Below are positions 17,067-52,295 of a DNA stretch of 52,298 nucleotides, one piece after another (the stretch's first letter is position 1; each line of letters begins with the position of its first letter). The position numbers and the translations under genes were made by a program. The notes under the pieces were generated by a model that searched no databases, had not been told where the DNA came from, and saw only the letters and a list, made by a program, of their open reading frames with translations. The stretch covers positions 1 through 52,298 of the forward strand of contig JANBPT010000231.1 in NCBI GenBank assembly GCA_027575765.1, in the 5' to 3' direction. The DNA is from Tieghemiomyces parasiticus. Taxonomy: Eukaryota > Kickxellomycota > Dimargaritomycetes > Dimargaritales > Dimargaritaceae.

Positions 17067-17915
17067 CTATGACGCCTCCGTCGTGTCCGAGTCGCTGCCG
17101 TCACTGAGGTCAGAGATATTGTCCCAGAGGGCCAGGTCAACGAGGGTCGTGGCCGTCTTGGAGGCCTGCAAGTCCGCAGGTGGAGATGAGGTAGAGGAGG
17201 AACCTGGGCTACTCGCTCCGCTTGAACTGGCGTGACGAGACTCGGATGGCCGTCCTCCATTACTACAGCTGCTTGCCGCTACAGTTTGGGCGGTGGTCTG
17301 GGCGCGTACGGCTTTGTGGACAGCTTGCTTAGCCTTGGCCGCCATCTTTTCAGTGTCCTTGAAAAACTGGCCGTCTTCGAACCGGTGCTCACGCTCGACG
17401 GGTTCCTGGAGACCGCGCTGGATTCGCTTATGCAGCTTCTCCTTTCGCTTGCGAGCAAGTTCGTCGGCCTGGTCCATCTTCTTAATGGCGGCGTCAACTG
17501 CCTTAGCGCTGCGTAGGCGGTGACCATCGAGGTTACGGCAGGCGTCCTGGTCGGTGGCTTTTTTGGAAGCCATCATGGCGCCGCGGGCCCGTAGCATACT
17601 CCCGAACCCGCCCTTCCCGCCCCGCACGGCGAGCTGCAACTGACACGACCAGGGAGCAGCGACGTGACCGTGGGTGGCGAGGAAAGGGTAGTCGTCGGCA
17701 AGCCTGAGACCGCCGTCGGTAGTTAGTCGCTGCTGTGCGATGGGGATACCATAGCGTTCAGTGAGGAAGGCTTTCAAGGTCGCAATGGTGACGGGAGTGC
17801 CGGGCCCAATAGGTAACGCGGCCGCATCCAGACAAACCGTGCGGTGAGTGCGGTCCGGATACCCTTGATTCCCGTCCACCAGAGGGAGACGGACCAAGAT
17901 TTCGGGATAGGACAT
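17067..17915 (-). CDS. sde2: Sde2-type splicing factor with processed ubiquitin-like domain
   Basis: Intronless, 282 aa. The start is the ATG at 17913-17915 (MSYPEILVRL); the frame extends further upstream only to a TTG codon. Residues 1-100 form the divergent ubiquitin-like fold, ending in VRGG followed by KGGFGSMLRARG at 101-112. This GG/KGG junction is the hallmark of Sde2. In fission yeast (established knowledge) ubiquitin proteases cut after GG, and the freed Lys-starting C-terminal part joins the spliceosome to promote excision of particular introns. The second signature, TDQDACRNLDGHRLR at 121-135, is also clear. A charged, probably helical segment (about 137-190) follows, then a Ser-rich tail ending in DLALWDNISDLSDGSDSD. 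Length is close to the fission yeast protein, with no C-terminal SAP domain. It is transcribed away from the Ras gene. Confidence 0.93.
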   Translation of the reverse strand: MSYPEILVRLPLVDGNQGYPDRTHRTVCLDAAALPIGPGTPVTIATLKAFLTERYGIPIAQQRLTTDGGLRLADDYPFLATHGHVAAPWSCQLQLAVRGGKGGFGSMLRARGAMMASKKATDQDACRNLDGHRLRSAKAVDAAIKKMDQADELARKRKEKLHKRIQRGLQEPVEREHRFEDGQFFKDTEKMAAKAKQAVHKAVRAQTTAQTVAASSCSNGGRPSESRHASSSGASSPGSSSTSSPPADLQASKTATTLVDLALWDNISDLSDGSDSDTTEAS

Positions 17916-20900
17916 TGCGGGCGAGAGAGGAATGACGAACGTGACCAAATATAGTGCAGATGGCTGGGCGGTGCCAAACGACGAAGGATAATCGATATTA
18001 CGAACGGGACTAACGTAATGAATGAACAGGTAAAGAGGAATCGAGCCAAATGCAATATAGATACAAAAGACAAGAGCTTGAAGCGTTCTAATGGAAGGGC
18101 CGGTGGTATTGGCAAGAGGCGCAGAGACCTGTGCTTGCGCTGACCTCCAGGCTTATTGGTCGCTGAAAATGTGTGATCTTTTTTTTTAAAAAAAAGCAAG
18201 TTACATAATGCTGTGTGTCACTTCCCCAGTGACGCCTGGGCCAGGGCACCTTGGAGGGGGGAGGGATGCATGTTGGCTCCAGTGTGGCTTTAAGTTATGA
18301 GTGTACCGTGGAGACGACGGTAGGCCAGTAACCAAGGAAGGTCTGTCCATGGTCATGGCACCAGAACACTTCAAGCTCGCCGGCCTACGCTACGTTAAGG
18401 AACTGTTCCATCCAGCATAGCGGCCCTGTTCAGGCTTGGTAAGACGGCGCCGCTCACTAGCGTCAGCCAGCCCAAACATGGTAAATATTGGGGTCGCTGG
18501 CGTTTGAGTAAAATTTCCAAAAAAGTCTTAATCGACCGCCGACAGAGCCCAGCTGGCTTCCTCATTAGGGCTACGAACTTGGCCGGAACGGGCAGGGGAA
18601 TTGACCGACGTACTTGTGCTCAAGGGGCCGGCTCCGCTACACCAACTTCTCACCCTCACAAAACGCATATACAACGAGAAACCCGAGAGACGAGCGTTCG
18701 CACCCTGCATCGCATACATGACTTAATCAAACGGCAAGGCCGTGTGTATGCCGTACCTGCCTTATAAATAGGCGATCACCGTGGTGCGGCCACCAGGCGA
18801 TCCATCACAAGTCGCCTCCCCCTCTTCTCTCCTTGGTTGCCGTGTCGATTAACCCTGGCTCCGACGGGTTGTTTGGACATTGCACACGAGGCTCTCTACG
18901 AGCCCAAGATGATGGACCCCTTCTCACTTCAACCAGCTAACCACTAACTTGCCTACACCTCTGTCGAAAAATGAAGCGCCCAGCGACGGATTGCCCTGCC
19001 TTCCGCCCCACTCACCGTCCTGCGCCGTCCGGGTCCCCTGGCCCCGGGCTCTCTCTATCAGTACTCAGGAAAAAAGGCCCTCACTCCCTCTACGGATGCC
19101 CGTTGACCACTCACAACGACACATTGGACACTGCGACCACTGCAGCACCCCGTCCATGTTATTCCCTCGTTATATGTTTTATACTTGATAGTGCCCAGGC
19201 TCCACCAGCGCCCTAGGTTCGGCGTACAGCGGAAGGCCATGCTCAATACCAAGTTGGACGGCGGATTATGAATCGCTGACGTGGGAAGCGTGCGGATCCA
19301 CTGTGTCCAGCTGCTCTCCCCGCAACCCGTTTCCCTAAATGTCATTTAACCTGTCCTCGGATGGGCCGTGCTTTACCTATCCATTTCGACCGTGGGGCCA
19401 TGGAAGTACTCCGGGGGAATGACTGCCGGACACTGCCACTCTGGCACCCCCCGGACCGGTCTTGTATGCACGGTGCCAATCCGCTGTGGGGCCCGCTGGC
19501 CACACCCCGTGTGAGCGAGTTGACGGGATCCCCTGGCATGGGCAGCCGCACCGTTCTATGTAGCCCAGCCGCCACGCCAAAGTGGCCGTCTCTTGGTTTT
19601 GCCTGCCCCTCCCTCGGTTAATCGCCAACCCTCCCGTACCTGTTGCAGCCGCTCGACAGAAACCGTGGCAGCGGTAGAAGCTACGCCTATCTGCCTCATC
19701 CAAACCCATCTACGACGGCTGCTACGCTTAGAGCAGGCCTGCTGTGGCTTATTTGCATTCCAGCAGAGTCTCTTGGCGGCCGTGGTAGACCAGCATTGGG
19801 CCAAACCTTCCGCCGCCACAGTCGTTCTTGCCGCTGATGTTACGGACCGTATCCTCGTTCGCACCCGCAGTCCCTTTTCAATCTGACACTAGTTTGACAA
19901 CCGACTCTGCCTGGGGTCCAGTTCCGGCCGTTCTCTCGCCGTATTCACACACACACACATACACACACACATATTTAGTGGCCCTGCCCTCGGATTCGTA
20001 ATCTTGGCTGCAGGTTGCGCTTATCCCTCTCTCCCCTTTCTCTTTTTTTCTAGACCCGGGCCCTTATCGGACGTCCACTTTACCCTAGGAACTGCCACAC
20101 CGCCAGTCTTTGACTACCTCAAGTTTGAGGTACTGTTGGCGAACCACCGCTTGCCTACCCGTTGGTACTCGCCGCCGTCCCCTTTGTTCGCCTCTCATCT
20201 GCACGCTAGAGCCCAGACTGTCCTGAAACCACTCTTATTCTTTTTGTTCCTCCGACTGTGTAGTTCAACCATTCCGACTTAGAATCAGGCATCGCAACTT
20301 GTTCGCTGTCTGGTCTCGTAGCTTTGGCCCTTTATTTTTTTCGCTTACTCCCCGCATCCCCTCATCCGCCCATCTCCTTGCTACGAGCCTTTTACCGGGT
20401 TCTCTGCTTCTATCTAATCTCTGTTTCCCCCGCCGTTGACAGCTACGCACCTAACCTTTGTGTATGACCTACAGTACCCGCTTACCGTCGCCCATCCAGT
20501 GCTCCCTTCAAAAAACGTAAGTCCTAGTCTTTGCACTCCTACCTGCTTCCTATTTCTGTCTATTTTTCCCCCATCGAAATGCCCGAGTTTGAGGGCTCCA
20601 AATTGAGACGGATGAGAAGTCGCCCCCCCTCTAGTGGCCAAGTCCAGAGGCGTGGATACCGTCCGGCCAGGCCCTAGACTTCCGCGAGAAAAGCGCTAGA
20701 CTGACCAGCAGCCATACCTTGGCTATTTTTGTGTCGTCGCTTCGTGTTGCGAGGTTCGCGGCTTCACTATCCACGCGGGTGAAGTGTACCGTTAGTTTAA
20801 TAGTGACCTCTCGTCCTCCGCGGAAGGTGCGGGCTGGAACTAGCCTAGCGGCCACCTAGTCTAGGGTCCTACCCGGTAAGCGAGGCCAAGGCGCCAAAGC

Positions 20901-22170: not shown

Positions 22171-23605
22171 ATGAGATTGTACAAATTGGTCGTCCTCGGC
22201 GATGGTGGTGTTGGCAAGGTAGGTCAGACGCTCGGTAGTGCGACGTGGCGCCTAATGCTAGCGCTAAGCCCCATATCTCTACGTTGACCATTTGACTTGT
22301 CTAAGGTCTCAAGTTCCGAGGCGTCGGTTCACTGGCAGAAGACTCCCGTACTGAGGCCTGTTATCATGTCCACAATCCAACTCACCAACGACACCCGTTG
22401 CTCGATTACACCCTCATCTTTAAATTCATCTTTTTTCTTTTGTAGACCGCCCTAACGATCCAGGTAAGTGATGTGGCGAGAGGCTCCTTCCTCCGTCCTT
22501 TAGTCTACCAGAAGCATGGCCTGTTGGACTGACATCTCCCCCCCCCCCCCAGGGCCCTCACCAGTACGACTAAGCAGTCGGGGCGTCGGCCCCCAAGACA
22601 CCGGGTAGGTCGGCTTGTTGCACAGTAGTCTATTTTTCCAACCATGCCTTGCGCGACATCCCCACATCCCTCCCCCTTCACAATTCTACCTATGAACTCG
22701 ACAATAGCTCTGTCTGAACCACTTCGTCGGTAAGTCCCCCTTTCCATCTAGTTAGGCCCCGCATCCTTTGACTACCTAATGCCTGCCTAAAAGGGAGGTG
22801 GCGCACCTAGAGCATGTCTCCGTCAGTTTTCTAACGAACAACTTTCCTGCCAATCCCTACCTCTCTCCTCCCTCCCGCCTCGACCAACCATCCCACATTT
22901 TAGAGGTACGTTACCATCTGGAAATTAGCCTCTTCCACCCGCTGGCCGGCCCCATTAATGAACGGGGCTTGCAAGGATGCAGCGTTTTTTGCTGCTCCTC
23001 GGGCAAATCCTTACCGCTTTTCTCCCTTCCTTGTATCCTAGCAGTCACTAACCCCTCACCATGCGGTCACGTCACACTGGTTCTTTACCATTATCTCCTA
23101 CCAGACCTACGACCCGACCATCGAAGACTCCTACCGCAAGCAGGTTGTGATTGATGAGCAGCCGTGCGTACTCGAGGTACTCGATACCGCCGGCCAGGAG
23201 GAGTACACGGCCCTACGCGACCAGTGGATACGGGATGGTGAGGGTTTCCTCCTTGTCTACTCCATCGCCGCCCGTTCCACATTTGAACGTGTGCAGCGCT
23301 TCCGCGATCAGATCACCCGCGTCAAGGATACCGACAACGTGCCCCTCATGCTTGTAGGCAACAAGTGCGACAAGGTGCACGAGCGGGAGGTGTCGCGCGA
23401 GGAGGGCTTGGCCATGGCCAAGCGGCTGAGCTGCGAGTTTGTCGAGTCGTCCGCGAAGACGTGCGTCAATGTGGAGAAGGCCTTTTACACTGTGGTCCGC
23501 ATTATCCGCGCCAGCCGCGACCCGCAGGGCGGTAACCACCGTAGTAACACGACCAAGAAGGACAAGAAAAAGAAGGCCAAGCGTGGCGGTTGTCAGATCC
23601 TTTAA
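22171..23605 (+). CDS. Ras-family GTPase (RasB/Ras2-like), five exons including a 2-nt exon
   Basis: Exons inferred: 22171-22218, 22446-22463, 22708-22729, 22904-22905, 23105-23605; 591 nt, 196 aa. Introns are 227, 244, 174 and 199 nt, all GT-AG. The protein has the P-loop GDGGVGK at 10-16, split from TALTIQ by intron 1; effector loop YDPTIEDSY at 32-40; DTAGQ with Gln61; NKCD for guanine recognition; and SSAK. The C-terminus is polybasic ([10 protein letters not shown]) and ends CQIL, a CaaX box whose final Leu suggests geranylgeranylation and membrane anchoring. The start [25 protein letters not shown] is typical of filamentous-fungal Ras2/RasB rather than Ras1 or Rsr1. Such GTPases act in polarised growth and cAMP or MAPK signalling (family knowledge). 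Gly12 and Gln61 are intact, so normal GTP cycling is expected. Confidence 0.92.
22904..22905 (+). other. putative 2-nt microexon (AG) of the Ras gene
   Basis: Exon 3 ends at 22729 in phase 1 (GTC-G) and the last exon begins at 23105 in phase 0 (ACC TAC GAC), so exactly two bases (mod 3) are missing. ATTTTAG-AG-GTACGT at 22898-22911 supplies AG between a canonical acceptor and donor, completing GAG for the invariant Glu30. A CTAAC branch-like site lies near 22833 for the upstream intron and another near 23047 for the downstream one. I saw no other AG-AG-GT or AG-AA-GT arrangement in 22732-23104. Confidence 0.7.
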
Positions 23606-28796: not shown

Positions 28797-30962
28797 TTAC
28801 GCCTTGGTATAGAAACAGCCGATCGAGTCTAGCCACCCGGCCCCGGACCCGTAGATCCCGGCCCACTGGTATCCGGTTGGTACCTTGAGGACGTGGACGG
28901 TGCCGCCGCGGGAAGAGCCGCACCAGCCGGTGGTTCGACCATGGGTGGTAATGAACTCCAAGGAGTCGATCCAAGCGCCGCTGTTGACGTTGATTTGGGA
29001 TAGGCCCTCGCCAGGCGCCAGGGGGAACTCGACGGGGTTGGGCCCGACCTTTCCGCACTGGACCCAGGACCCGTCGGCCAGGTAGGCGACAAACCCGTCT
29101 ACGTAAAGTCCGTGGTAGATGCGGAGGTGGGTGAGTGGTGGGAGAGCGCGACCGCCGTGAGCCAGCGGAGCGAAGCCACCGGGACCCCGCATAAACTCGG
29201 CGCCGTTGCCGTGGCCGGAGGAAAAGTAGGCCTGGAAGGGAACGGTGCCGTTCATGGTGCCATTGCCCAGCTGGTTGCTCTTGTACACGTGGAGGTGCTC
29301 GTAGTGCGGGATGGTCACCCGGTGTTCCCCCAAAAACCTTTCAAAGTCGGGAATCTGGGACGAATTTTGAGCAACAGATACCACGTCCAGCGTCACCCGG
29401 TCGCCAGCCTGCCACGGCGCCTTGTTAAAGATCATTTGACGCGTCAGGGTGAGCTGTGTGGGGGTCACTACGGGCTGGGCGGTGGCGGAGCCAGGGCGCG
29501 GCGGTAGAGCCGGGGTGGCCGCGTGGTGGTCCCCGTCCACGTACTCGAGGTGGCCCTTGAGCCGGTCATTGATCCAAATCTCCACCATGGAGATCCCTAC
29601 GGGGTTCTTGACCAGGATGCCTTCCTCCACGGCATAGAGCGTAGAGTCAGTGACGGCATTACGTGCGGGCAGGGCCAGGGCGTCGGTGGGCAGGCGCAAA
29701 CACGGGTGGTAGCGTAGCCGGATCATGTCGACTCGGGTCCAGTGCGAGCCAGCCTCGTCTTCGGGGGTGATGGGCTGGAACCGAGGCTCCTTCACCATGA
29801 AAGTGCGGTTGTAGTTGTTGAACCCGCGGCTCATGATGCCGTCCTGGGTGTGGCCTAGGGTCAGAAGGTGACCCACCTCGTGTAGAAAGGCGCCCATGCC
29901 CACGTTAGCGGCCTTCCATCCTTCACCACACTCGTTGGCGTCGTTGGCCGTGAAACGCTCGTCCACCGGGGTAGTGTCGAGGAACTTGGGCACAATTTCC
30001 TCCAGGCAGCTTGGCCAAGCGTAGGTGAGGTGGGATCCAAACACGCATTGCCGGCGCGACCCGCCGCCGCCACCCAGGGCGGCGTGAGCCAAGATGACGC
30101 GGAGGTGCGAGTCCCAGTGGGAGTCCAAGGTCATCCCGGCTACATAGCAATCCCGGTCGAAGGGCGCGCCGTAGTCCTCAAGGGCATGGCTAAACAGGGT
30201 GAACATGCTGTCCTTGGAGGTCTCCCCAGTCTGAGGTTGGTATTGCTGGGCGTGGAGCGGATCGCGCATCTCGGCTGTGGTGAGGCGAGACCGTACGATG
30301 TAGACCTGGGCGGTATTACGCTGTACGTCCTCCTGATCGGTTAGCGTCTCAGGAAGCCAGGCCTCGTCCAGGCGGAACGTGCGTCGGCCAAACCCGTTTC
30401 GGTACATTTGCTCGGCATTGAAGGCCTGCCACATGTAGGCCGCACAGCGTAGGCGCTTGATGGCAGCCGAGAGGTCGTTCTTCCCGGGGCCTTGCTTATC
30501 CGGGGGTGCATCGAAAGTCAGTGGGGAGTCCTTCGCCACCATGATTGCCAGGCGCAAGGGCGGGTTCTGCAGGCGTGGGAGGTAGTGCAGGGTCAGGAGG
30601 GTCTCAGCACCGTTACACTGGAAGCGGACGAGGTTCTGCCCGGGCTCCAAAGGTACCAGACACTTGAAGTGGGTGTCCACGACCGGCCAGCGCTGCATAG
30701 GAAAGTTCTGCGGGTACACGGTAATCTGCCCCTCAAAATGAGTGTGGGGTGGTCCGGCCCGGCCATAAATGAGCAGGACGCGCTGATAGACTGTCTCGCC
30801 CTCTTGGATACTCACGATGAGCGGACTTGGCACCTTGAGGTCCGGGCCAGGGGCACTGCGGTCGCCGAGGCTCATACCGGCAAACGATGCCGTCGCGTCC
30901 GGCATGTGGGTAGCGTCGTCCACCGAGTAGGTGGGCTCAGTGCCGGGCATATAGTGCTGCAT
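28797..30962 (-). CDS. putative zinc metalloprotease (YIL108W/Metallopep family) with jacalin-like C-terminal domain
   Basis: Intronless, 721 aa, start ATG at 30960-30962. The zinc-binding motif is HEVGHLLTLGH at 361-371, an HExxHxxxxxH arrangement with Glu362 catalytic, followed by GIMSRG at 375-380 as a likely Met-turn. The surrounding sequence (long N-terminal region with a GQNLVRFQCNGAETLLTLHYLP beta segment, ANECGEGWKAANVGMGAFLHEVGH) matches the fungal putative metallopeptidase family typified by yeast YIL108W. The C-terminal part, about 600-721, repeats IDSLEFITTHG and LDSIGCFY and reads as a jacalin-like lectin fold. I see no signal peptide or membrane segment, so it is probably cytosolic. 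Substrate unknown. A 185-codon ATG frame upstream on the same strand (31144-31701) is doubtful and not included. Confidence 0.88.
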   Translation of the reverse strand: MQHYMPGTEPTYSVDDATHMPDATASFAGMSLGDRSAPGPDLKVPSPLIVSIQEGETVYQRVLLIYGRAGPPHTHFEGQITVYPQNFPMQRWPVVDTHFKCLVPLEPGQNLVRFQCNGAETLLTLHYLPRLQNPPLRLAIMVAKDSPLTFDAPPDKQGPGKNDLSAAIKRLRCAAYMWQAFNAEQMYRNGFGRRTFRLDEAWLPETLTDQEDVQRNTAQVYIVRSRLTTAEMRDPLHAQQYQPQTGETSKDSMFTLFSHALEDYGAPFDRDCYVAGMTLDSHWDSHLRVILAHAALGGGGGSRRQCVFGSHLTYAWPSCLEEIVPKFLDTTPVDERFTANDANECGEGWKAANVGMGAFLHEVGHLLTLGHTQDGIMSRGFNNYNRTFMVKEPRFQPITPEDEAGSHWTRVDMIRLRYHPCLRLPTDALALPARNAVTDSTLYAVEEGILVKNPVGISMVEIWINDRLKGHLEYVDGDHHAATPALPPRPGSATAQPVVTPTQLTLTRQMIFNKAPWQAGDRVTLDVVSVAQNSSQIPDFERFLGEHRVTIPHYEHLHVYKSNQLGNGTMNGTVPFQAYFSSGHGNGAEFMRGPGGFAPLAHGGRALPPLTHLRIYHGLYVDGFVAYLADGSWVQCGKVGPNPVEFPLAPGEGLSQINVNSGAWIDSLEFITTHGRTTGWCGSSRGGTVHVLKVPTGYQWAGIYGSGAGWLDSIGCFYTKA

Positions 30963-32061
30963 ACTGGACAGGGGTGGGGTGCGAGTAGGCAGGGGAAAGT
31001 AGGGAACAAATAGCCTAGGCTGCGAAGAGGAGGTAAGGCGGGGGCGACGGGGCAGCCGGGGTGGATGCGGGAGACGAAGGCAAATAGGAGCTGCCTAATG
31101 AGAAAAACGAGGGTTCTGGAACAGCTATGTGCCAAGCAATGAGCTAGGCCGAGCGGTCGGTGGAGGAATGCCAAGAGTTAGGTGCGGTCACGGAATGACG
31201 TGTTTCAGAAGGGGTGAGCGTGTGGGTCTGGCCCAGCAGGCCTGATGGCCCCGCTAAACGGGTTTTAAGGCACCTGGGGGATGGAAGCGGCCCGCTCTTC
31301 GGTGTAAGCGTCACTATTGCCAACGATAAAGATGCCAAGACCAGGTTGGTATCATTTTGGGACTGCAGTGACCTTTGTGCCACCTTAATTACAGAGGGGC
31401 AGGGTAAGGACTGTGAAGGGGGAACTGATGGCGGCTGTGACGCTTGACAGGTGAGCTGGTACCCCCCTCCTCTTGCTGCTCCAGCTTGTGAGCTCGAGTG
31501 AACAACGGCGCACCTTCTGACCTTCCAAGTTGCCAATTTTACCAGGTTTGCGCGGTCCAGCCACCAACCCGTCGCCCACGAACCATGCCAAGCCTTCTCC
31601 ACAGCGCCCCTCCTTTCAGACTGTAGATCCGGACTATTTAGTGTGCAATTGACGAAGGTAGGGCTGACCGGATGGTCATGATGGTCCGTAGGAGCTTCCA
31701 TCAAGAACAGCTCCGGTAAACCTCTAATATATATATATCAATGCTAGGTAAAACTTATTGTTATTTTTCAAGAATGATACTTACAAGCCCGCACGACTTG
31801 TAGCAACCCTGAGCCCCATTACTCTACCCAGTGCCCTGACCAACCTCCGTGCCCGTCACGGTTGGAGCAGATATCTTATCATTTCCGCCCGCAACCGTAG
31901 TGGTCGGTAGCCGGCCTGACGCTCTGCTCTCCTTTCTTTCCCTAGTCTAAACCGTGGCGCGTAGAGTTGCGCACCCTTGCCGACGACGTGCCCAGGGTCG
32001 CCCGCTCGGCTGTCCACTCGCCTGCGTCGGGATTCGTCTGTCCGATCGGAGTCGGACGCCA
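30963..32061. other. spacer between metalloprotease start and Lsm12 end
   Basis: It contains the promoter side of the minus-strand metalloprotease and the 3' flank of Lsm12. A minus-strand ATG frame at 31144-31701 (185 aa) has no recognisable domain and Ser/Thr/Pro-rich composition like other leaders here. A short AT repeat is at 31726-31738. Confidence 0.4.
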
Positions 32062-42280: not shown

Positions 42281-42479
42281 TATTAAGCTTCTATCTCAGC
42301 TTGGCTTCCCCCCGTGCCTTTTCTCTGGTCGACTAATCGCTTTACACGTCCGCATTTTCTTGGCTGTCGAACTCTCCAGCCCGACCCGGGCATACCTCAC
42401 CAATTCGTCTCCTCTATACCGTCCTTTATAGCCCCCCTATTTCGCCGATACCACCCAGGTATTCCCCACTCAACCAACT

Positions 42480-44345
42480 ATGGGACCCAATTTGGAAGCG
42501 TTCGCGGCCAACCCGGACTTTGACGGGTTCGGCGTCCAGCGACTCATTGATCTGTACGAGGTTAAGGCAAAAATCCTGATACCAATCATTGCAATCCTGA
42601 CGTTTCTGTATCTCGGCTCGACGGTGCTCTTCGTCCTTCAAAGTCGGCGGTCCCGCGAGCTCCAGCGCCGGTCCGTGACGCTGACCATGGCCGGCTCGGC
42701 GACAGGATTCATCGTTTTTATCATCTTTCTACTCCGCTCCATTATCGACCTGCCGTGCACCACCCTCATGTGGCCCACCTACCTAGGCCTCCTCCCATGC
42801 AACCTGGTGGTCCTTTTAAAGGCCGTCCGCCTGTGGGTCATGAGCGTGTCCAACCGTGCCAAGGTCATCCGTCTCCAGAACCCCGAACAGCCCGAAACTT
42901 TCTGGGAACGCCACCGCAACATCTTTAAGTACGAGAAACTTGACCAGCGGCTCCTTCTATTCGTCGGTATTCTCAATATCCCCATGACCATTTTCATGAT
43001 CGTCGTGCTGGCCCGGTCCCCAGTGTATGGCATAGGCAACCACGACATCTTTTGTGATATTTCGTGGGAGATTGTGCCCATCACCGCCGCCCTGGCCCTC
43101 CTTATGTTTGTCATTTTTCCTGTTACCCTGTACAAGATCCGCAACATCCAGGACGCGTATCTAATCCGCCATGATATCATCGTGGCCATGGTGTCCAATA
43201 TCTTATTGATCTCGGCGTTCTACGTCATGGAGGCTGCTGTCCCGGCCACCATTGAGGTATACTTCAACAGTAACCTGTTCCTGGCCATGGATGCCATCAT
43301 CTTGCAAGTATCTGCGGTGGTTGTACCGCTCATCCAGTTCCGTCGTCGCCGTAACGAGTTTGAAGGCGACACTGTCGAAAGTAATCACGCAGGTCTTTCG
43401 GCCCATCAGACGTTTGTGCACATCGTCGAGGACCCCGAGTGGCTAAAGCGGCTGTGTAAGTTCTGCGAACTTAACTTTTGCTCGGAACTTACCCTGTTCC
43501 TCATTGAGTACCAGAAGCTCAAGCAGCACATCTGGACGTCCGAGTCGGTCGAGTTCCATATCAAGGAGAACCTCCTCAAGACCAGTCTGGACTTTGGTGA
43601 CCACCTCGACCCGGTCTCCACGTTCCCGCCGGAATATACCCAGCATGCTGTCGTGATCTCCGAGAACGGTGCCACGTCGGTCGCCGTGCCTTGGAAGTCC
43701 CAGTCCACCAAGTATCTCACGGAGGCCAAACCGGAGGAGGAGTGTGGCAACGACTTTGACCGCCCGGTCTCCTCGACCACATCGGGCTTCTTCTCCTCCT
43801 CCCCTATCTCCGCGGAGAGCGTGATGGTCGGACCGCCCCGTCTGATGGATCGTCTCCTCAAGAAGTCCGGATGGGGAAGCGCCCGCACCTCGGCCGACGA
43901 TTCCTTACGCCAGACCGTCAACGCCGCCGCGGCCGCCATTGCGGCTGGTTCCATCACCACCCCGCCCATCTTCCCCACCACCACCACGGCCAGTGGCGGC
44001 GACGGTACGATCTATCGTACCGACCCCTCGATGGCCACCCCGCGCGACTTCAGCATCACCAACTCGATTCTCACCGAGCTCAACCAGCACCGTGACCGGC
44101 CCGTCCAGAGCACCCTCCGCCACCATTACTACCTGTTTTACCAACGCTTCATCGCCTTCGACGCCATGTGGGAGGTTAACCTCAGCGGACGCACTCGTCG
44201 CGCCATCAACGACCTCATGGAGCGCAACGCCCCCACCCTGGCCATGTTCGACACTGCTAAGGACGAGGTCTGTCAGCTCATTATTCAGGATATCCTACCC
44301 AAGTTCCTAACGGCCCACTTCCACAAGGTGTGCGATTTTCAATAA
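42480..44345 (+). CDS. seven-transmembrane protein with C-terminal RGS domain (7TM-RGS), RGS split by an insert
   Basis: Intronless, 621 aa; ATG at 42480 with A at -3. Seven hydrophobic segments at roughly 31-53, 69-91, 96-118, 158-178, 194-219, 232-254 and 264-286 are followed by a basic RRRR border. The RGS domain begins at about 310 (FVHIVEDPEWLKRLCKFCELNFCSELTLFLIEYQKLK) but breaks off near 350. Its second half, YYLFYQRFIAFDAMWEVNLSGRTRRAI plus the final helices, sits at 550-616, so an insert of about 195 residues, largely Ser/Thr/Pro/Ala-rich, interrupts the helical bundle. RGS domains speed GTP hydrolysis on G-alpha subunits; a 7TM-RGS fusion (as in plant RGS1 and several fungal proteins) suggests a membrane sensor that turns G-protein signalling down. 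The ligand is unknown. Both halves are intact and in frame, so it is likely functional. Confidence 0.9.
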   Translation: MGPNLEAFAANPDFDGFGVQRLIDLYEVKAKILIPIIAILTFLYLGSTVLFVLQSRRSRELQRRSVTLTMAGSATGFIVFIIFLLRSIIDLPCTTLMWPTYLGLLPCNLVVLLKAVRLWVMSVSNRAKVIRLQNPEQPETFWERHRNIFKYEKLDQRLLLFVGILNIPMTIFMIVVLARSPVYGIGNHDIFCDISWEIVPITAALALLMFVIFPVTLYKIRNIQDAYLIRHDIIVAMVSNILLISAFYVMEAAVPATIEVYFNSNLFLAMDAIILQVSAVVVPLIQFRRRRNEFEGDTVESNHAGLSAHQTFVHIVEDPEWLKRLCKFCELNFCSELTLFLIEYQKLKQHIWTSESVEFHIKENLLKTSLDFGDHLDPVSTFPPEYTQHAVVISENGATSVAVPWKSQSTKYLTEAKPEEECGNDFDRPVSSTTSGFFSSSPISAESVMVGPPRLMDRLLKKSGWGSARTSADDSLRQTVNAAAAAIAAGSITTPPIFPTTTTASGGDGTIYRTDPSMATPRDFSITNSILTELNQHRDRPVQSTLRHHYYLFYQRFIAFDAMWEVNLSGRTRRAINDLMERNAPTLAMFDTAKDEVCQLIIQDILPKFLTAHFHKVCDFQ

Positions 44346-52222: not shown

Positions 52223-52295
52223 TGGAGGACCAGGGTATCGATCCCCGTGCCTCTCGTATGCTAAACGAGCGCTCTCCCATTTGAGCTAGACCCCC
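52223..52295 (-). tRNA. tRNA-Ala (anticodon AGC)
   Basis: 73 nt, no intron. Anticodon stem CTCGT/ACGAG with loop TTAGCAT gives AGC (plus-strand 52260-52262). D-arm GCTC/GAGC and T-arm CGGGG-ATCGATA-CCCTG are intact. The acceptor stem GGGGGTC/GTCCTCC contains the G3-U70 wobble pair, the classic alanine identity element, with discriminator A73. Pair 6-67 is a U-U mismatch. CCA is not encoded, as usual in eukaryotes. The B box (GATCGATACC, RNA sense) deviates from the usual GGTTCGANNCC, having A rather than T at T-loop position 54 and again near its end, so Pol III expression may be reduced. Confidence 0.85.

Follow-up and report, generated by a model that had tools for sequence, protein, structure and literature searches.

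The RAS2 gene in the window (the whole stretch of DNA analysed, 52,298 nt of Tieghemiomyces parasiticus) appears to contain an exon of only two nucleotides, AG, at positions 22904–22905 of the + strand; judging by the sequence, we put the probability that this exon is real at about 0.9. It supplies the second and third bases of codon 30 (GAG, Glu30), and is the supported reading in that no other reading we found combines canonical splice sites with the kept Ras spacing. We propose that two canonical introns lie 2 nt apart, the first interrupting codon 30 behind its first base and the second following the complete codon, and that AG would be a constitutive exon between them. The preliminary description of this DNA dealt with this one gene; judging by protein models in public databases, this junction has probably been missed in other fungi as well.

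The gene spans positions 22171–23605 of the + strand and is divided into five exons of 48, 18, 22, 2 and 501 nt, so that three microexons (18 + 22 + 2 nt) follow one another. Spliced alignment and translation placed exon 1 at 22171–22218 (residues 1–16; no difference between haplotypes), exon 2 at 22446–22463 (residues 17–22, TALTIQ; one synonymous difference between haplotypes) and exon 3 at 22708–22729 (residues 23–29 and the first base of codon 30). These are separated by intron 1 (22219–22445, 227 nt, GTAGGT...GTAG) and intron 2 (22464–22707, 244 nt, GTAAGT...ATAG). The AG exon, placed by reading frame and spliced alignment in both haplotypes, is flanked by intron 3 (22730–22903, 174 nt, GTAAGT...TTTTAG) and intron 4 (22906–23104, 199 nt, GTACGT...CCAG). 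Exon 5 (23105–23605, 501 nt including the stop codon) encodes all residues from Thr31 onward, including switch II and the C-terminal CQIL. The preliminary description had noted that exon 3 ends at 22729 in phase 1 (GTC-G|GTAAGT) and that exon 5 begins at 23105 in phase 0 (CCAG|ACC TAC GAC), and sequence and translation bear this out. The interval between the two exons contains CATTTTAG|AG|GTACGT, and the proposal in the same description of a two-base AG exon with canonical borders holds for both haplotypes.

With AG included, the RAS2 coding sequence is 591 nt long and encodes 196 amino acids, ending in TAA with no internal stop. Glu30, Tyr32, Asp33, Thr35, Glu37 and Gln61 then fall at standard Ras positions, as the preliminary description had noted, and the solved Ras with the best sequence match (5wdr) shows no gap in its alignment to query residues 2–165. 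The protein, a RAS2-type Ras GTPase, has a Ras domain (Pfam Ras match at window positions 23102–23509), a P-loop and both switch motifs in Ras numbering, and its C-terminal CQIL is a predicted CAAX box, which we take to be lipidated. A protein search scored the 7986 candidates sharing most words with the query, and the best 120 of 7821 are considered below. The top-scoring match, Dispira simplex RAS2 (P0001; known here as a protein), is 95% identical over the whole query and has the same 11-residue stretch around Glu30. The gene is intact and is predicted to be a working RAS2-type small GTPase gene.

A second copy of RAS2 (C944:17819–19612) lies on the counterpart of the window's contig (C512) and is about 95% identical. 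Most Ras-family matches in the assembly likewise form pairs that sit on separate contigs and score almost the same, so that the fungus seems to be diploid or heterokaryotic, with both haplotypes assembled. In the two haplotypes the AG exon and its borders are alike (TTTTAG|AG|GTACGT here, TTCTAG|AG|GTACGT on C944) save for one base of the upstream border. The two copies differ at 13 coding positions, all of them third bases and all 13 synonymous, with no coding indels; introns 1–4 measure 227, 244, 174 and 199 nt in the window and 227, 241, 172 and 197 nt on C944.

Residues 1–170 of the Dispira protein were aligned to the gene with a self-written spliced aligner that follows GT-AG rules only. 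The aligner picked the structure with the AG exon in six of six settings, with and without splice-site bonuses, and gave the same structure for the C944 haplotype, for which one setting was tried. If exon 3 is spliced directly to exon 5, a stop follows after 45 amino acids in both haplotypes, and inclusion of the 2-nt exon is therefore needed for Ras2. The site is not a zero-length recursive splice site: if no base is kept, the product goes out of frame beyond residue 29 and ends at 45 amino acids, so two bases must be retained. A search for single introns (donors 22709 to 22904, acceptors 22920 to 23124) found eight in-frame joins, three of them GT-AG (donor GTCGGT) and five AT-AC (donor ATCTAG). 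One of the GT-AG joins drops Val29 and Glu30 (VE) and two gain residues; one of the AT-AC joins preserves length but turns ETYDPT into GKSPFP, and the other four gain residues. No GT-AG single join within these donor and acceptor ranges keeps both frame and spacing.

Among the best 120 of 7821 protein matches, 73 carry the 11-residue stretch with Glu30. Glu30 is not universal among these relatives (P0057 has Lys), and its invariance in an alignment of 21 proteins is not evidence, those matches having been picked as intact. Indels of any kind in residues 1–165 occur in 59 of the 120; they touch residues 26–33 in 32 models and lie elsewhere in 30, with 3 models having both, and by our own count 19 of the 30 elsewhere-indels fall at residues 105–110, a naturally variable loop. 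Ten of the 120 have lost exactly VE (P0017, P0026, P0027, P0031, P0044, P0065, P0066, P0081, P0089 and P0112). The remaining 22 of the 32 comprise nine models without LCLNHFVE, six with Gly and an insert after Val29, and seven others. Read-through of the exon 3 donor in the window gives FVGKSP.... Five of the six Gly-insert models (P0024, P0029, P0041, P0078 and P0083) could be encoded by a phase-1 donor G|GTRNGT, whereas P0039 is incompatible with a GTRNGT donor; the chance that the second and third residues of the tripeptide are donor-compatible is 0.13–0.14.

Close pairs of models show such differences directly. In Rhizophagus irregularis, P0017 and P0004 agree at all 205 aligned residues, and VE is all that separates them. 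Phycomyces blakesleeanus P0031 matches P. nitens P0021 at 181 of 190 positions, the gaps being VE and one C-terminal residue, and Linnemannia P0078 matches P0036 at 184 of 186, the difference being the read-through insert. Additional broken models, among them P0122 and P0129 without VE, came from later searches with broken queries, which are biased toward broken models and were left out of the counts. Among the best 120 of 7821, models broken in the region of codon 30 make up 32 of the 89 that are NCBI-sourced (which include a few non-fungal filings, a fish and a fern), 0 of 24 from environmental contigs shorter than 3000 nt and 0 of 7 others (Fisher p = 1.8e-4 for 32/89 vs 0/24). We assume that the short environmental contigs are mostly transcript-derived. 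Two scans of viral contigs and two of prokaryote contigs yielded no DNA from a relative at this locus.

Faced with a 2-nt exon that it cannot model, a gene caller would omit VE, run on through the donor or leave out the microexon cluster, and both of the errors that a missed 2-nt exon would force, VE loss and read-through of a phase-1 donor, are found in public models. These models suggest that gene callers have missed the same junction in other fungi, and the RAS2 entries P0024, P0029, P0041, P0078 and P0083, together with the ten VE-less models, have a garbled switch I and may need correction. We consider it rather probable that the 2-nt exon at Glu30 goes back to early fungi and has persisted across several phyla, held by the invariance of switch I. 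Both intron positions would then be old in fungal RAS2, and a 2-nt exon would be left wherever both persist.

It is possible, if somewhat doubtful, that the exon is real but recent or local, and that the broken models elsewhere stem from GC donors after codon 30, from a plain 24-nt exon and from poor gene calling. A plain 24-nt exon would fit the loss of LCLNHFVE (24 nt) in 9 of the best 120 of 7821 matches, and a GC donor after GAG could make a GC-blind caller drop VE. Two Mucorales proteins, P0085 and P0121, look by eye, as protein models, like products of a gene with a single intron after codon 30; they appear to have the second intron only, so that losses would occur. Against a local origin, both forced errors are present, including donor read-through with re-entry at Thr31 in five of the six Gly-insert models.

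The exon itself would be unnecessary if a single long intron (22730–23102) used a non-AG 3' splice site, leaving the AG of CC|AGACC to supply the two missing bases, an arrangement that we think quite unlikely. The CCAGACC sequence would indeed yield the same protein (GTC-GAG-ACC) and an mRNA identical to that made with the 2-nt exon, from which it could be directly distinguished only through intermediates or lariats. The intron would, however, end in CC despite a good AG two bases on, and the near-consensus TTTTAG|AG|GTACGT in the middle of the interval would become a coincidence. When the inner 354 nt of the interval were shuffled 20,000 times with dinucleotides preserved, 10 of the shuffles contained the strong motif YAG|AR|GTRNGT; because the motif patterns were composed after the site was seen, this and the other motif figures are not clean p-values. 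The bare motif is not rare: the looser AG|AR|GT arose in 880 of the 20,000 shuffles and any AG|NN|GT in 8219, and two of the latter are present in the actual interval. Across both strands of the window there is a single instance of the strong motif. It is hardly enriched assembly-wide (629 occurrences on both strands vs 581 for the reversed control), and by our own arithmetic the assembly rate gives an expectation of about 0.0025 per 375 nt on one strand. The reading frame and the second haplotype weigh more than the motif statistics.

The sole GT-AG join that adds no residue is HF|TYDPT, from donor GTCGGT at 22726, where the GT of the Val codon serves as donor, to acceptor 23105. That this is the true junction, giving a Ras without Val29 and Glu30, is very improbable, although it is the only frame-keeping GT-AG single join without added residues and the same form occurs in 10 of the best 120 of 7821 public models. 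It would shorten switch I, and its donor runs into a complete GTAAGT that starts four bases further on. The R. irregularis protein is recorded both with and without VE around otherwise identical aligned residues (205/205), and VE is missing from none of the 24 short environmental contigs among the best 120 of 7821. Just as improbable is a 2-nt exon CA at 23042–23043 (TCCTAG|CA|GTCACT, Ala30), to which the aligner fell back in both haplotypes when the AG exon was masked, at a score only 11 lower (819 vs 830). Its donor, GTCACT, is weak, the next intron would be just 61 nt long, and Ala would stand where 73 of the best 120 of 7821 relatives have Glu. A transcript reading GTCGAGACC would conflict with both the HF|TYDPT junction and the CA exon.

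A 2-nt assembly or sequencing error, which the preliminary description had named as a possible refutation, or a pseudogene could be imagined in a draft assembly of 1363 contigs but has very little to recommend it, since the slip would need to have occurred in both copies of the same structure, and these differ at 13 synonymous coding positions with no coding indel and in the length of both introns flanking the exon.

Two bases leave no space for U1 and U2AF to bind together, and the two introns should therefore leave sequentially, in two steps. One intron would be removed first and the second then excised from a composite site, as in recursive splicing. Removal of intron 3 first would create the composite donor GAG|GTACGT, and removal of intron 4 first would leave TTTTAG|AGACC; either order preserves the second donor, the surrounding bases being GAG|GTACGT before and after removal of intron 3. 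Mago nashi, which belongs to the exon junction complex, is encoded in the genome. RNA folding joining the splice sites gave nothing past chance (z = -0.55), and no Rfam match was found within the RAS2 gene at E up to 0.1. A CTAAC stands 52–70 nt before the acceptor in introns 3 and 4 of both haplotypes; a CTRAY motif within 100 nt occurs in intron 1 of one haplotype only and in intron 2 of neither, and we dropped this branch motif as support for the two introns because the pattern in introns 1 and 2 makes it not diagnostic.

The AG exon joins a known class of ultra-short exons and does not define a new one. Published reports describe a 1-nt exon in Arabidopsis APC11 (PMC4674806), 1-nt exons in plant APC11 and VPS55 (PMC8831610) and a 1-nt exon in Fusarium CYP621A, presented as the first known from a fungal gene, with Arabidopsis, Drosophila and human exons of 2–5 bp cited alongside (PMC12940212). 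The view in the preliminary description that exons this short are almost unknown was thus too strong. The full-text matches listed, which cover few subscription journals, include none that describes a 2-nt exon in Ras.

The Fusarium case is close in kind: both are fungal, with a phase mismatch in an invariant motif, canonical AG/GT borders and mostly wrong database models, but CYP621A has a 1-nt exon in a P450 of one genus, seen in transcript reads, whereas RAS2 has 2 nt in two haplotypes and possibly in many fungi (PMC12940212). The plant exons are ultra-short, long conserved in essential genes and pervasively missed in annotation, as the RAS2 exon would be if it is old; they differ in kingdom, in their length of 1 nt and in their proof by RNA-seq and RT-PCR, the RAS2 exon being known here from sequence (PMC4674806, PMC8831610). 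Work on recursive splicing in human cells showed that a part-spliced reporter can use a 5' splice site located 6 nt beyond a junction, a use that the exon junction complex represses (PMC6224609). The likeness lies in a 5' splice site near a fresh junction being used second, with a 6-nt microexon included from the part-spliced reporter, and the difference in the system of human cells and reporters, whereas RAS2 here would keep two bases. A preprint on Ras gene structure describes its fungal Ras genes as intronless except in Aspergillus (PMC9882654), and the multi-intron RAS2 gene described here is unlike those.

If the exon is both old and widespread, few exons of such size would match it in age or in distribution, and RAS2 models would be silently corrupted in many reference genomes. 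Were it old, the RAS2 entries of R. irregularis and P. blakesleeanus would lack or garble switch I, and natural variants among fungi with both introns, one or none would inform the origin of the exon and the order of intron removal. A 2-nt exon in the Ras effector loop would offer a clean test of the spliceosome against an exon too small for the usual pair of factors.

A Ras paralog (L003, C176:3434–6806, contig minus strand) was considered as a second case and rejected: by eye it reads HFVDEYDPTIE unbroken at codon 30, and its intron lies in phase 1 at codon 38. An open frame with an SDE2 domain (window 17070–18152, - strand, E = 4.6e-22), by its Pfam name a splicing regulator, lies about 4 kb from RAS2; its proximity to a gene with a tiny exon is probably a coincidence. 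Further along the window are a 765-aa open frame (28800–31094, - strand) in which a putative metallopeptidase domain (PF12044) precedes a jacalin-like lectin domain (PF01419), and a 637-aa open frame (42432–44342, + strand) with a C-terminal RGS domain (PF00615), possibly a G-protein regulator. Rfam places a tRNA gene at 52223–52295 (- strand; 47 bits vs a cut-off of 29).
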